Origin: Pelotomaculum sp. PtaU1.Bin035
Lineage (GTDB): Bacteria; Bacillota; Desulfotomaculia; Desulfotomaculales; Pelotomaculaceae
DNA length: 44,441 bases
Assembly: GCA_002067965.1 (NCBI GenBank)
Contig: MVRN01000076.1
Location: 1-44,441 of the forward strand
Direction: 5' to 3'
A program made the translations under genes and the position numbers. Positions 1 to 42,189 of the stretch are shown here, piece by piece. The notes beneath the pieces were generated by a model. The model was given only the letters and a program-made list of their open reading frames with translations, had not been told where the DNA came from and searched no databases. The number at the start of each line of letters is the position of its first letter. The stretch's first letter is position 1.

Positions 1-171
<171 letters not shown>

Positions 172-32356: not shown

Positions 32357-34159
32357 CTAAGCTGTCCTTTTCTCGGCGAAGTAAGCCCCGATCCCTCTGG
32401 CAATCGCTTCCGCCACCTTGTTGCGGAACTGGTCGGTCTTCATTAGTTTTTCTTCGGCGGCGCTGGAAATGAACGCTACTTCCGCCAGGACTGCCGGCAT
32501 ATTTGAAGTGCGCAGCACCGCGAAGTTGGCGTCCTTCACGCCGATATCCCGCAGGCCCAGGGCTTTGAGCAGTTCGGCCTGGACATAGCGCGCCAGCCTG
32601 CCGCTTTCCTGAATCCTGGCAGCTTGCTTGGCATCACCGTTGCCGCTGTAAATATACGTGGTGGTGCCCCCTATTGATTTATCATTATTGGCGTTCATAT
32701 GGATGCTGACAAAAACGTCAGCTTTGGCGTTATTTGCTTTGTCGGTGCGCGGATAAAGGTCTATGTCCTGGTCGCCGGACCTGGTCAGGACGACCTTCGC
32801 CCCTTGCGCCTCTAATATTTTTGCGACTCGCCGGGCGATATCAAGATTAACCTCTTTCTCTTTGGTCCCTCCCGATCCCACAGCGCCGGGGTCGCTGCCG
32901 CCATGGCCGGGGTCGATGGCAATGACTTTGCCCCGGTAAGCCCCGCTGATATCCGGGATGTAAGTTTGAACGGTCAGCACTTTCTGATCGCTGGAAAGTG
33001 AGGCCACGTACTGAGCCCCGCCGGACAATTCAAAAACCAGCCTGGTTATGTCAGGGTCTTTTTGATAATAACCGGCCCGCACATTGAGTACAGTGTCGGA
33101 ATTGACTTTGGTGCTTTGCGGCAGATTGCCGATCGCGACCCCCTTCAGGTCCACAACCAGCCGGTCGGGGTTGTTCAGGAAAAACGACGAGTAGTCAAAA
33201 GGCGCGCTGGCTTCAACAGTTGCGTTTGTTTTGCCGCCGGACTGGCTTATCTTTAAGGAAAGCGCCTCGCCGGCCGGCCTGTCCGCACTCCCTCTGCTTC
33301 CCTCCGGCACGCCATTATCCGGGTTCTGCGCAGCCGGAGCAGGCTGCAGGACATTTACCAGCCAGCCTGCCACCCAGCCCTCCGCACCGCCGCTTAACTT
33401 TACCTTATACCAGTCACCGGACTTGTCCAACACCGGAAGACGTTCGTTCAACCCTACCTGTGAAAACACATCATACCCGGTTCCCGGCCCGCCGCGGACA
33501 TTGACCACGCTGCCGGTAACCACGGCGATCTCCCCGCCGGACCGGGACCCGCCGGAGCCGGAAGAAACCGGCTGGTTAACTGGCGGGCTAACATCCGGGC
33601 CGGCCGTTTCTATGGCGACCAGCCAGCCTGCCACCCAGCCCTCCGCACCGCCGCTTAACTTTACCTTATACCAGTCACCGGACTTGTCCAGCACCGGCAG
33701 ACGTTCGTTCAACCCTACCTGTGAAAACACATCATACCCGGTTCCCGGGCCGCTGCGGACATTGACCACGCTGCCGGTAACCACGGCAATTTCCCCGCCG
33801 TACCGGGACCCGCCGGAGCCGGAAGAAGCCGGCTGGTTAACTGGTGGGCTAACATCCGGGCCGGCCGTTTCTATGGCGACCAGCCAGCCTGCCACCCAGC
33901 CGGTTAAGCCGGAATTCAGCTTGACGCTGTACCAGTCACCGGATTTGTTCAGGACCGTCAGGCGGTCACCCAGGGCAGCCTGCGCCGCCACCTGGTAACC
34001 CGTTCCCGGACCGCTGCGGATGTTGACAAGGTCAACCGCAACGACAGCAGTATCTCCGGCAGCGGCAGAGACGTATGGACTTGTCAACAGGACGCCGAAA
34101 AACAGCATTAGGCCCAATAAAACAACGAAGCCAAAAGAAAACCGGTATCTAAAACGCAT
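32357..34159 (-). CDS. N-acetylmuramoyl-L-alanine amidase with three SH3b domains and AMIN domain
   Basis: A secreted peptidoglycan hydrolase of 600 residues. After a signal peptide ('FVVLLGLMLFFGVLLTSPYVSA') come three bacterial SH3 domains (about 38-100, 125-185, 212-272) joined by Gly/Ser/Pro linkers, an AMIN domain (about 300-400), and a C-terminal amidase_3 domain. The last has the zinc motif 'IDPGHGGSDPGA', 'SIHMNAN' and the catalytic Glu in 'AVLAEVAFISS'. SH3 units 2 and 3 repeat almost exactly with an 87-codon period. I prefer the ATG at 34159 over a GTG five codons upstream. Confidence 0.95.
   Translation of the reverse strand: MRFRYRFSFGFVVLLGLMLFFGVLLTSPYVSAAAGDTAVVAVDLVNIRSGPGTGYQVAAQAALGDRLTVLNKSGDWYSVKLNSGLTGWVAGWLVAIETAGPDVSPPVNQPASSGSGGSRYGGEIAVVTGSVVNVRSGPGTGYDVFSQVGLNERLPVLDKSGDWYKVKLSGGAEGWVAGWLVAIETAGPDVSPPVNQPVSSGSGGSRSGGEIAVVTGSVVNVRGGPGTGYDVFSQVGLNERLPVLDKSGDWYKVKLSGGAEGWVAGWLVNVLQPAPAAQNPDNGVPEGSRGSADRPAGEALSLKISQSGGKTNATVEASAPFDYSSFFLNNPDRLVVDLKGVAIGNLPQSTKVNSDTVLNVRAGYYQKDPDITRLVFELSGGAQYVASLSSDQKVLTVQTYIPDISGAYRGKVIAIDPGHGGSDPGAVGSGGTKEKEVNLDIARRVAKILEAQGAKVVLTRSGDQDIDLYPRTDKANNAKADVFVSIHMNANNDKSIGGTTTYIYSGNGDAKQAARIQESGRLARYVQAELLKALGLRDIGVKDANFAVLRTSNMPAVLAEVAFISSAAEEKLMKTDQFRNKVAEAIARGIGAYFAEKRTA
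33361..33881. repeat. Tandem 261-bp repeats encoding SH3 domains
   Basis: The stretch from 33361 recurs from 33622 with only scattered base changes, and a more diverged third unit begins at 33883. The 261-base period keeps the reading frame (87 codons). The near identity of two units points to a recent duplication or gene conversion. Confidence 0.85.
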
Positions 34160-34203
34160 TATAACCCACCCCACGCCCCAGGCTGTTTAATTACAGCTTA
34201 AAT

Positions 34204-39224: not shown

Positions 39225-40133
39225 TTAAGGAGAGCACTTGGCGCATATGGACATGAACAAGGTTGTGCTTAAGTAACGGTCGCCGCGATCCGGCAGGATG
39301 GTCACGATGACGCCCGACTCCATACGGCCAGCCGCCTTAAGGGCGCCCGCAACAGCCGCGCCACTGGACATACCCACGAAAATGCCTTCCCTGGTGGCCA
39401 TCATCCTGGCCGTTTCAAAAGCCTCGCCGTCTTCAATGACGTACTTATCGTCCAGCAACCCTGGATGGTAAATTTGCGGGACAATGGCTTCCTCCATATT
39501 TTTCAGACCCTGGATGGTGTGCCCCTTCACCGGTTCGGCGCCGATGATCCGGACGCCCGGCTTTTTCTCCTTCAAATAGCGGCCTGTCCCCATCAGCGTA
39601 CCCGTGGTGCCCATGCCGGCGATGAATACGTCCACTTCCCCGTTTGTCTGGGCGTAGATTTCAGGACCCGTGGTCTCGTAGTGGGCGAGAGAATTGTTCT
39701 CGTTGATGAACTGATTGGGCATGTAGTACAAATCCGGCTCATCTTTGGCTATCTGGTGGGCCAGCCGGATGGCGCCGTCCGTCCCTTCCTCCGCCGGGGT
39801 CAGGATGACCTCCGCCCCGAAGGCTTCCAGGATTTTACTTCTCTCCATACTGACGCAACCCGGCATTACAAGCCTGACCCGGTATCCCTTGGCCACGCCG
39901 ATCATGGCTATGGCAATACCCGTATTCCCCGAAGTCGGCTCGAGGATAATCTTGCCCTGTGTAAGCTCACCGGACTCCTCCGCTTTTTTTATCATGTAAT
40001 AGGCCGGGCGGTCCTTGACGGACCCACCCGGATTGCTGCCTTCCAGTTTCCCGTATATCTTCACCTTCGGATTCGTGTTCAGGTTTTTTAATTCAATCAG
40101 CGGTGTATTGCCTATGGCAGATAAAATATCCAT
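39225..40133 (-). CDS. PLP-dependent cysteine synthase (CysK/CysM family)
   Basis: Makes cysteine from an activated serine and sulfide, or thiosulfate in CysM types. The PLP lysine is Lys40 in 'GSNPGGSVKDRPA'; the substrate loop is 'PTSGNTGIA' (66-74). The phosphate cup is 'AGMGTTGTLMG', and 'GMSSGAAVAGAL' and 'ILPDRGDRYLST' complete the fold. The length (302) and 'EGSNPGGSVKDR' resemble CysM slightly more than CysK. The C-terminus ends 'ICAKCSP', so it has two late cysteines and no aromatic Ile-tail like that which binds serine acetyltransferase. GGAGG precedes the ATG. Confidence 0.93.
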   Translation of the reverse strand: MDILSAIGNTPLIELKNLNTNPKVKIYGKLEGSNPGGSVKDRPAYYMIKKAEESGELTQGKIILEPTSGNTGIAIAMIGVAKGYRVRLVMPGCVSMERSKILEAFGAEVILTPAEEGTDGAIRLAHQIAKDEPDLYYMPNQFINENNSLAHYETTGPEIYAQTNGEVDVFIAGMGTTGTLMGTGRYLKEKKPGVRIIGAEPVKGHTIQGLKNMEEAIVPQIYHPGLLDDKYVIEDGEAFETARMMATREGIFVGMSSGAAVAGALKAAGRMESGVIVTILPDRGDRYLSTTLFMSICAKCSP

Positions 40134-40283
40134 TCTGTGTCGCCTCCAACGTTTACGTCTAAATCCAACACAATCTCTTTATTCGCTGTCCTGACATGAT
40201 TTCCTGCCGGCTGAGATTCTGAATACCCATTTTAACAAGCTTTTTGGAACCGCCTGCACAGCAGGTGGTTTTCGGTACAGACA

Positions 40284-40316
40284 AAAATACCCCAAACTGC
40301 GAAAAACAGTTTGGGG
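40284..40316 (-). terminator. Intrinsic terminator of the Cys-rich repeat protein gene
   Basis: CCCCAAACTG (40290-40299) pairs with CAGTTTGGGG (40307-40316), loop of 7. On the minus strand TATTTTTG follows. It lies 43 bases after the stop codon. Confidence 0.85.
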
Positions 40317-40358
40317 TTGGTATCTGTAGGCTAGTTACACCGTCTTTCCGTTATTGTT

Positions 40359-40763
40359 TTATTTTGTGGGTTGGAGAAACTGCATCATTGAGGCAATGAT
40401 TTGATTTGCCTGCAAAGATTGCTGATTGCCGCATTGTGAATTGCAGTTGCTCAAACATTGAGATGATGTGCAATTTTGCAACAGATTTGAAAGCAACTGT
40501 TGTGTATTCCCAGTACATTGCGGGTTACAGTTACTCACACATTGTGCGGCGCAATTTGGCAATGAATTTGACATTAACTGTTGTATATTGGTACAACATT
40601 GTGGATCCACACATTGCGTACCTATACATTGCGTACCCACACATTGTGGACCCTCACATTGCGGACCCACACACAGCGATGCGGCACTTGCACTAGCTAT
40701 GACACCAAATAACATTAAGAGACAAAGTGAAATCACAAAAACGGCACGTTTGTTTCTGAACAT
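40359..40763 (-). CDS. Secreted cysteine-rich repeat protein under c-di-AMP riboswitch
   Basis: 134 residues with a signal peptide ('VFVISLCLLMLFGVIASASA'). The mature part has 15 cysteines. First come five short tandem units of the form C-x-G/D-x-Q ('CVGPQ', 'CEGPQ', 'CVGTQ', 'CIGTQ', 'CVDPQ'). Two copies of a ~27-residue unit follow ('QQLMSNSLPNCAAQCVSNCNPQC' type). The end is Gln-rich. Nothing else in the mature chain looks enzymatic. AAAGGAG lies 6 bases before the ATG, and a ydaO-type riboswitch sits immediately upstream. Roles as a disulfide-linked wall, spore-coat or metal-binding protein are possible; I do not recognise the family. Confidence 0.82.
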   Translation of the reverse strand: MFRNKRAVFVISLCLLMLFGVIASASAASLCVGPQCEGPQCVGTQCIGTQCVDPQCCTNIQQLMSNSLPNCAAQCVSNCNPQCTGNTQQLLSNLLQNCTSSQCLSNCNSQCGNQQSLQANQIIASMMQFLQPTK

Positions 40764-40779
40764 CTTTTTCTCCTTTCTT

Positions 40780-40918
40780 TGTGCCTCCGGGGTTAGCTGA
40801 CGGGTTCGGTAAAAAAGATACCCTACCCAAGTTCAGTAATACTGAATTGAGATTCACCCCATTGATGGTTCCCCCGTACCCAGTTAGAGTAAGTTTTCTG
40901 GGATTCGGCAATTCAAGA
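40780..40918 (-). ncRNA. c-di-AMP riboswitch (ydaO-yuaA type)
   Basis: On the minus strand all the conserved blocks of the ydaO class appear in order: TGCCGAATCC (40901-40910), GGTACGGGGGAACC (40867-40880), GGGTGAAT (40852-40859), GGGTAGGGTA (40819-40828), and CCGAACCCGTCAGCTAAC ... GGAGGC (40783-40809). Members of this class bind cyclic di-AMP and usually switch off cell-wall or potassium/osmolyte genes. The aptamer ends about 6 bases before the ribosome site of the Cys-rich gene, so control of that gene is direct, perhaps at translation initiation, as no separate terminator is seen between them. Confidence 0.92.
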
Positions 40919-40931
40919 GCCAACGCGGTTA

Positions 40932-40961
40932 AGTATACTATAACTCACGATTTTTTAGCAA
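40932..40961 (-). promoter_or_regulatory. Sigma-A promoter of the riboswitch transcript
   Basis: -35 TTGCTA at 40956-40961, 18-base spacer, -10 TATACT at 40932-40937; the predicted start falls near the first bases of the aptamer. Confidence 0.65.
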
Positions 40962-41265
40962 AAGTCTTATATGCCCTTAACATGCTTTGCGGCAAAAAAG
41001 ATATGAAGTTGCTAAGAATTAAGAAATGATTCTAAATATTAAGACAAGAAGGATTTATGTACCTTTACCTAAATGGCAATATCGCCTTAAAGGCAAGCGC
41101 CATCCCAACCTGTGCAAACTTTATTGTCATAGAAAGATAACGTCTTCAAACAATTCAATTCATCAAACTTATAACCCTCCGATTATTAAGAGCTTGTATT
41201 GATTTAGCAAATATTGTTATAATAATTCAGTAAACAAATTTAAAAAGACGGGAGATCAATATATA
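40962..41265. other. Gap between riboswitch promoter and kinase-ParB gene
   Basis: About 300 bases, AT-rich toward the right. Apart from the doubtful 58-codon frame I see no gene. TATTGTTATAATAATTC near 41210-41226 may supply a -10 (TATAAT) for the rightward kinase gene; no good -35 was found. Confidence 0.35.
41026..41202 (+). CDS. Possible 58-residue basic small protein
   Basis: An ATG opens a 58-codon frame ('MILNIKTRRIYVPLPKWQYR...') rich in Arg, Lys and Tyr with two Cys. There is no clear ribosome site (only AAGAA before the ATG), and the surrounding sequence is AT-rich and shows other gene fragments. It may be a remnant or chance frame rather than a working gene. Confidence 0.2.
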   Translation: MILNIKTRRIYVPLPKWQYRLKGKRHPNLCKLYCHRKITSSNNSIHQTYNPPIIKSLY

Positions 41266-42189
41266 GTGTCAAAATTATTCCCAAATATTTCTATCACAGG
41301 TGACTTAGGTAGTGGAAAAAGCACTATTAGTTCAATTATAGCAAGAAAACTTAACTTTCAATTTTTTTCTATAGGTGAAATCCAACGACAATTAGCCATT
41401 AAATATAATATGACAATTTTAGAATTTAATAATTATATAAAAACACATCCAGAAATAGACATAGAACTTGATAACACTTTGACAGACTTAGGCAATACTA
41501 AAAAATGTATTATATTCGATTCAAGAATGGCCTGGCACTTTGTACCTAATTCTTTTAAAATTTGTTTAATTGTTGACTTGGATATTGCAGCTGAACGAAT
41601 TATTAATGCAAAACGAGGAATGGTAGAAACATATTCCAATAAAAATGAAGCAAAAGAAAAACTTATAGAAAGAAGAAAAATTGAAAAAGATAGATACCTA
41701 AGAGCATATAATAAGGACATAACATTAGATACAAATTATGATTTAATCATTGATACCTCCTTCTCATCTCCTGAACAAATTTCAAATATAATAATAAGCA
41801 CTTTAACAGATTGGCATAACAATAAATATATAAATAACTTTTGGCTTGCCCCAAAACGGTTATACCCAACATTAAATACTATTAGAAATTTAGATTCACA
41901 ATTAATTGATAATTTAAGTGTATCGATATCAAAAGAAGGATTAAACAAAAACCCAATTATTGTATTTAGGTTAGACCAAGATTATTTTATTTATGACGGC
42001 CACCACAGAACGGCAGCCTCAATTCTTAATAATTTGGGCTTAATACCTATCAGTCTTCTAAAAAACAAAACTGTTTCCAATATTACTCTAGAGGAATTTG
42101 TTAAAGGCAATGTTAGCTTATCTCTCATATACGATTGGGAAAAAGTATGTAAATTTAAGTATATCAAATATCCCGAATATGTTGTCTAA
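41266..42189 (+). CDS. CMP-kinase-like P-loop domain fused to ParB/SerK-like domain
   Basis: 307 residues in two parts. Residues 1-180 resemble the Cytidylate_kin2/archaeal CMP-kinase group: Walker A 'GDLGSGKST' (12-20), 'SIGEIQRQLA', 'IIFDSRMAWHFVP' (82-94), 'RYLRAYNKDI' and 'YDLIIDTS'. Residues 190-300 carry 'FWLAPKRLYPT' and 'IYDGHHRTAAS' (242-252), the DGHHR signature shared by ParB-like enzymes such as the ADP-dependent serine kinase SerK. So the protein may phosphorylate a small molecule. Base use is far more AT-rich than the rest of the window, a sign of transfer. The start is GTG, with GGGAG about 12 bases upstream. Confidence 0.75.
   Translation: MSKLFPNISITGDLGSGKSTISSIIARKLNFQFFSIGEIQRQLAIKYNMTILEFNNYIKTHPEIDIELDNTLTDLGNTKKCIIFDSRMAWHFVPNSFKICLIVDLDIAAERIINAKRGMVETYSNKNEAKEKLIERRKIEKDRYLRAYNKDITLDTNYDLIIDTSFSSPEQISNIIISTLTDWHNNKYINNFWLAPKRLYPTLNTIRNLDSQLIDNLSVSISKEGLNKNPIIVFRLDQDYFIYDGHHRTAASILNNLGLIPISLLKNKTVSNITLEEFVKGNVSLSLIYDWEKVCKFKYIKYPEYVV

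Follow-up and report, generated by a model that had tools for sequence, protein, structure and literature searches.

In the window, i.e., the entire 44,441-nucleotide stretch of Pelotomaculum sp. PtaU1.Bin035 DNA that was analyzed, a complete c-di-AMP riboswitch was found directly in front of a gene for a small secreted protein rich in Cys, Gln and Asn. The locus represents a known riboswitch class with a recognised mode of control and a new conserved target family. We consider it likely that the riboswitch is a canonical c-di-AMP OFF switch, acting on translation initiation of the monocistronic mRNA for the secreted protein.

The aptamer was identified with the Rfam covariance model RF00379 (c-di-AMP/ydaO, ydaO/yuaA), which matched positions 40920–40768 of the minus strand over its full length (model positions 1–134 of 134). 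Its score of 87.7 bits exceeded the gathering cut-off of 38 bits, and the E-value was 2.8e-19; the match is therefore far from chance. Judged by its sequence, the window copy would be expected to bind c-di-AMP. The aptamer lies in the 5' leader, between a sigma-70-type promoter-like site (minus strand, 40961–40932) and the ATG start codon at 40763. The promoter-like site consists of a −35 element TTGCTA, an 18-nt spacer and a −10 element TATACT; roughly 12 nt separate it from the aptamer. In the scanned region, sites of this kind were no more common than expected by chance (5 found, 4.2 expected from shuffles); the −10 element TATACT and the 18-nt spacing recurred at all seven homologous loci, while the sequence of the spacer diverged.

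On the other side of the aptamer, the Shine-Dalgarno (SD) sequence AAGGAG (minus strand, 40775–40770) was located 6 nt before the ATG, and the ATG itself follows the end of the RF00379 model by 4 nt. The gene occupies 40763–40359 of the minus strand (coding part 40763–40362 plus the stop codon). An intrinsic terminator was detected after it by terminator search (minus strand, 40317–40289), the sole terminator-like site within 39900–41400, and the gene was therefore regarded as monocistronic. The preliminary description had placed a complete ydaO-type aptamer on the minus strand of 40359–40961, with a promoter ahead of it and the ribosome site of a secreted 134-residue protein right after it. 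The span was correct and all three elements were borne out, the promoter by its conservation at the homologous loci.

Several other features of the window were recorded. A cytidylate-kinase-like P-loop protein (PF13189, E-value 4e-14) is encoded at 41266–42189 of the plus strand, adjoining an MFS transporter; its C-terminal region resembles ParB_N (PF02195, E-value 0.03, below the cut-off; motif YDGHHRTAAS), an unusual kinase/ParB-like fusion. The gene at 32357–34174 of the minus strand encodes an N-acetylmuramoyl-L-alanine amidase (Amidase_3) that also carries AMIN and three SH3_3 repeats resembling one another. At positions 1–171 (minus strand), the contig breaks off within a 16S rRNA gene, of which the 5' part is retained; its first 160 bases are 97% identical to those of P. 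terephthalicicum.

Homologues of the Cys-rich protein were sought by profile searches in 113 genomes of the order. A contig scan with the single sequence gave no match, whereas an alignment-based query did. Relatives were present in only three genera, all in the host's own GTDB family (Pelotomaculum and its kin); the named matches were Pelotomaculum terephthalicicum JT, two Pelotomaculum metagenome-assembled genomes (MAGs) and one Desulfotomaculaceae MAG. Six further intact genes were obtained, with 30–66% identity to the first aligned member. The start codon, the SD sequence and the signal peptide were conserved among them, the signal peptide best of all protein parts.

RF00379 was detected directly upstream of all six fetched homologues, so that, with the window, seven of seven intact copies carry the riboswitch. 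No intact homologue without it was found in the 113 genomes. The aptamers were better conserved than the genes behind them, with nucleotide identities of 82–91% compared to 63–77%. Gene neighbourhoods differed among the carriers, and the conserved unit thus comprises promoter, riboswitch and Cys-rich gene. An eighth locus, on contig 140 of genome G008 (L169, positions 1495–1839), contained only a truncated Cys-rich remnant, in which the start, the signal peptide and the riboswitch are all missing. RF00379 gave no match in the vicinity, and the locus apparently reflects gene decay. Control of the Cys-rich gene by the riboswitch, as proposed in the preliminary description, is supported both by its position and by the conserved pairing in all intact homologues. 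That description had named homologues consistently lacking the riboswitch as a refutation, and this case did not arise. That description had also regarded a small Cys-rich protein as an unfamiliar target. No such target was found in the literature searched, the scope of which did not extend to the original ydaO gene lists (Nelson 2013).

The protein of 134 residues contains 16 Cys, all but one of them located beyond residue 26. It begins with a hydrophobic signal peptide (about residues 1–27, ending in ASASA; minus strand, 40763–40683), which the alignment delimited, and the mature part of approximately 108 residues holds 15 Cys, 32 Gln plus Asn and only 3 charged residues. Part of the gene is a genuine 15-bp tandem repeat of 5.2 copies (minus strand, 40673–40596), which is translated into a CVGPQ-like array of the pentapeptide C-x-[GD]-[PT]-Q. 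The earlier designation as a protein made of Cys repeats was thus correct for this part, but the array is specific to the window genome and absent from the homologues. The latter are similar in kind, with low charge, low complexity, a Gln/Asn/Ser-rich composition and 8–11 Cys. Closely spaced CxxxxC arrays were seen in the alignment, and the number and spacing of Cys were poorly conserved.

The window protein had no family match in Pfam, NCBIfam or PADLOC, including the CAP domain PF00188, and no relative in the PDB by sequence. When five homologues were scanned against Pfam, four had no match and one gave a weak RicinB match below the cut-off. AlphaFold2 run on the protein without an alignment yielded a low-confidence, uninterpretable model (pLDDT 60, pTM 0.32) with a hydrophobic helix at residues 3–25. 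The dN/dS ratio (Nei-Gojobori) ranged from 0.28 to 0.68 in four informative homologue pairs, which indicates purifying selection on the frame, though weak. Judging from these sequences, the proteins appear to form a fast-diverging family restricted to the host's GTDB family.

The target was then placed within the c-di-AMP regulon of the host family, in which riboswitches of this class were present in all 25 genomes. From these genomes 109 RF00379 sites were fetched, and the first gene after each was called. The distance from aptamer end to start codon was bimodal, with about 60 direct sites (−7 to +7 nt), about 46 distal sites (at least 78 nt) and none between. Among the sites so classed, two called distal (C250 and C170 of genome G006) have direct-type tails, with starts that were probably mis-called, and one called direct (C212 of genome G012) sits on an assembly gap. 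Signal-peptide-like N-termini, as defined by a simple hydrophobicity rule, were found in 60 of 62 direct targets compared to 5 of 46 distal ones. Direct targets sampled by Pfam were LysM+Hydrolase_2, LysM+NlpC/P60 and CAP proteins, and the Cys-rich protein was the only domain-less kind among those sampled. Within the family, practically every direct target is a secreted envelope protein, be it a LysM-hydrolase, an NlpC/P60 or CAP protein or the Cys-rich protein.

In distal gaps, terminator-like hairpins were present in 26 of 46 cases, compared to 3.2 in shuffles. Going by their sequences, the distal products resemble transport proteins of the Kup/TrkA/TrkH type and enzymes akin to lysine aminomutase. 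The host genome itself carries five c-di-AMP riboswitches, whose targets are the Cys-rich protein, two CAP proteins, one LysM-Hydrolase_2 protein and one Kup-like protein. Two diadenylate cyclase (DAC, PF02457) genes, whose products would supply the ligand, were found in each of the six genomes tested, including the host. On contig 170 of genome G006, two c-di-AMP riboswitches on opposite strands were observed within approximately 3 kb, one in front of a CAP-like gene and the other in front of a Cys-rich gene (L159).

In other families of the order, 80 further sites were sampled. Only 15 of 26 direct targets were secreted there, and some cytosolic aminomutase-like genes were direct, so that a rule equating direct with secreted was rejected for the order as a whole. 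No other small Cys-rich target was found among these 80 riboswitches.

The manner in which the aptamer would reach the ribosome site was derived from a predicted pseudoknot joining the loop of the GGGUAGGG...CCGAACCC hairpin to the 3' tail after P1. In the window, its 5' strand is UCUUU (minus strand, 40818–40814) and its 3' strand AAAGA (minus strand, 40780–40776), the latter immediately 5' of the SD sequence. The window copy amounts to only five Watson-Crick pairs, and the helix covaries over 107 riboswitches of the family, with matched changes on both strands (UCUUUU/AAAAGA, CCCUC/GAGGG, CUCUUUC/GAAAGGG, UCUCU/AGAGA, CCCUU/AAGGG and ACCCG/CGGGU). Mean loop-tail complementarity was above that of all 200 re-pairings in the direct and the distal class each, in a control that treats the riboswitch sequences without regard to their kinship. 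The ydaO crystal structure (PMC5393176) likewise includes a pseudoknot. In direct switches of the LysM type the SD sequence (GGAGGG) lies inside the pseudoknot, and in those of the Cys-rich and CAP type a conserved tail, AAAAGAAAGGGGAA, sets the SD sequence directly after it.

Pseudoknot-free folding of the window left the SD sequence partly paired (mean probability of being unpaired 0.34), and the unbound state may therefore not be fully open. The folding energy of the leader was no better than that of shuffled sequences (z −0.06), in a calculation that ignores pseudoknots and is for that reason uninformative. For the loop strand of the pseudoknot, an alternative pairing with AGAAAAAGAUG that covers the start codon was predicted to be stronger in the window (−7.1 kcal/mol). 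This window-specific duplex (AUCUUUUUU/AGAAAAAGAU) was set aside because it is not conserved, as was a pairing of the 5'-end CUCUU with the SD sequence in the minimum free energy fold.

Most simply, the aptamer, once stabilised by its ligand, would itself serve as the expression platform. At high c-di-AMP, ligand binding would stabilise the aptamer together with its built-in pseudoknot, UCUUU pairing with AAAGA just after P1; the stabilised pseudoknot would lie directly against the SD sequence and the ribosome would be excluded. At low c-di-AMP, the 3' tail would be released, allowing synthesis and export of the protein, which is rich in Cys, Gln and Asn and almost without charge. The pseudoknots of direct switches abut or contain the SD sequence, from which a translational OFF switch, with the protein made at low c-di-AMP, is inferred. 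The 4 nt between the model end and the ATG leave no room for a terminator. Occlusion of the ribosome binding site by docking is among the modes listed for ydaO in a review (PMC10907184), and the nlpC riboswitch of Corynebacterium glutamicum was reported as a translational c-di-AMP OFF switch for which a loop-RBS pseudoknot was proposed by its authors (PMC9960051). Features of the latter type were found here as well, namely the lack of a terminator between aptamer and start codon and an aptamer pairing that can reach the SD sequence, abutting it in the Cys-rich and CAP type and containing it in the LysM type.

Both the polarity and the translational level assigned to the window switch are presumptive. 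With regard to polarity, the preliminary description had suggested a protein made in response to stress, understood as a rise in c-di-AMP. This was not borne out, since the ydaO switches that have been characterised turn expression off (PMC9960051); OFF polarity would place expression of the Cys-rich protein at low c-di-AMP.

Since LysM-Hydrolase_2, NlpC/P60 and CAP proteins are under switches of this direct design too, the Cys-rich protein most likely belongs, by analogy, with the products that remodel the envelope in connection with the turgor/potassium signal, c-di-AMP being linked to potassium (PMC5575661). It is probably envelope-associated and made at low c-di-AMP, when potassium importers would also be derepressed. 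The shared regulon and the secretion signal are the basis of this reading, and they likewise suggest the role of a wall component, as had been put forward in the preliminary description.

Regarding the cysteines, extracellular wall or matrix material cross-linked by disulfides is one rather uncertain possibility, compatible with the proposed switch mechanism; a disulfide-linked wall component had been proposed in the preliminary description. It is suggested by the signal peptide, the 15 Cys in 108 mature residues, the low charge and the Gln/Asn/Ser-rich low complexity, a kind common to the homologues. However, Cys number and spacing vary as described above. In a search directed at DsbA and VKOR among the thiol-oxidation proteins, neither was detected in five of the six carrier genomes, the host among them, and VKOR was missing from the sixth as well, in assemblies that are incomplete. 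Disulfide linkage is somewhat disfavoured by the result for the host genome. The same result fits the view, itself doubtful, that the cysteines serve as metal ligands or remain as free thiols, so that the protein would buffer metal or sulfide/redox conditions outside the cells of these anaerobes. The closely spaced CxxxxC arrays are in line with this role, while a His/Asp ligand pattern, a family match or a structural relative by sequence did not accompany them. Metal or free-thiol roles and disulfide cross-linking were judged about equally plausible. A broader, speculative proposal concerns this lineage-restricted, fast-evolving Cys/Gln/Asn-rich family as a whole: in syntrophic anaerobes of the Pelotomaculum type it would provide a new extracellular material (a matrix, a cell-contact layer or a metal/thiol buffer), with synthesis gated by c-di-AMP and the aptamer pseudoknot as expression platform.

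For the switch itself, it is rather unlikely that control is exerted on transcription or mRNA decay, with the translation block secondary, or through intrinsic or Rho-dependent termination in the early coding region. Terminator-like hairpins did occur within 120 nt past the aptamer in 11 of 62 direct genes, and for the Streptomyces rpfA switch, which has no canonical terminator, transcript termination in vitro was reported (PMC9960051, discussion). Against this, the window offers only the short aptamer-to-ATG interval, its terminator-like site lies downstream of the gene, and the terminator-less switch of C. glutamicum acted on translation. It is very improbable that the frame is a chance or decaying one, with the riboswitch a relic or serving the downstream cysteine synthase (39225–40133): the low-complexity sequence does diverge fast, the G008 remnant lacks a riboswitch and the cysteine synthase is the next gene on the same strand, but dN/dS stayed below one in the informative pairs, start, SD and signal peptide are conserved, and a functional link to the cysteine synthase was rejected because of the intervening terminator and the differing neighbours in relatives.

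Given the pairing in every intact copy found, an ordinary c-di-AMP switch would have acquired an undescribed, lineage-specific envelope target. The c-di-AMP regulon gains an undescribed protein family, the riboswitch being present with every intact copy found. In addition, a comparative set of about 60 direct and 46 distal sites is available in a single family, in which one riboswitch class is split by expression platform. The direct ribosome-site design goes with secreted envelope proteins, and the distal, often terminator-bearing design with potassium, transport and lysine-aminomutase-like genes. With this set, the proposed pseudoknot/SD mechanism for translational control by c-di-AMP, which the C. 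glutamicum study did not settle, becomes directly testable.

Compared to known systems, the window copy shares with ydaO/yuaA (kimA; RF00379) the full-length model match, the conserved core and the 3' pseudoknot strand. The ydaO switch of B. subtilis has a terminator and controls a potassium importer, whereas that of the window has no terminator and a secreted Cys-rich target. The nlpC switch of C. glutamicum is alike in having no terminator before the gene and a secreted envelope target, and translational OFF control would be common to both; it differs in phylum and target, and the window pseudoknot abuts the SD sequence rather than containing it. Read from its sequence, the RNA-Puzzle 12 ydaO construct (PMC5393176) allows pairing between its loop CUCCUUCG and the 3' segment CGAAGGAG, in a pseudoknot that includes GGAG. 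Its pseudoknot sequence differs from that of the window, and the SD-like GGAG lies inside, as in the LysM-type direct switches of the family. Counterparts are also found within the family itself, in the direct switches of LysM-Hydrolase_2, NlpC/P60 and CAP genes, which have the same aptamer-SD design and secreted products but, unlike the Cys-rich protein, recognised domains.
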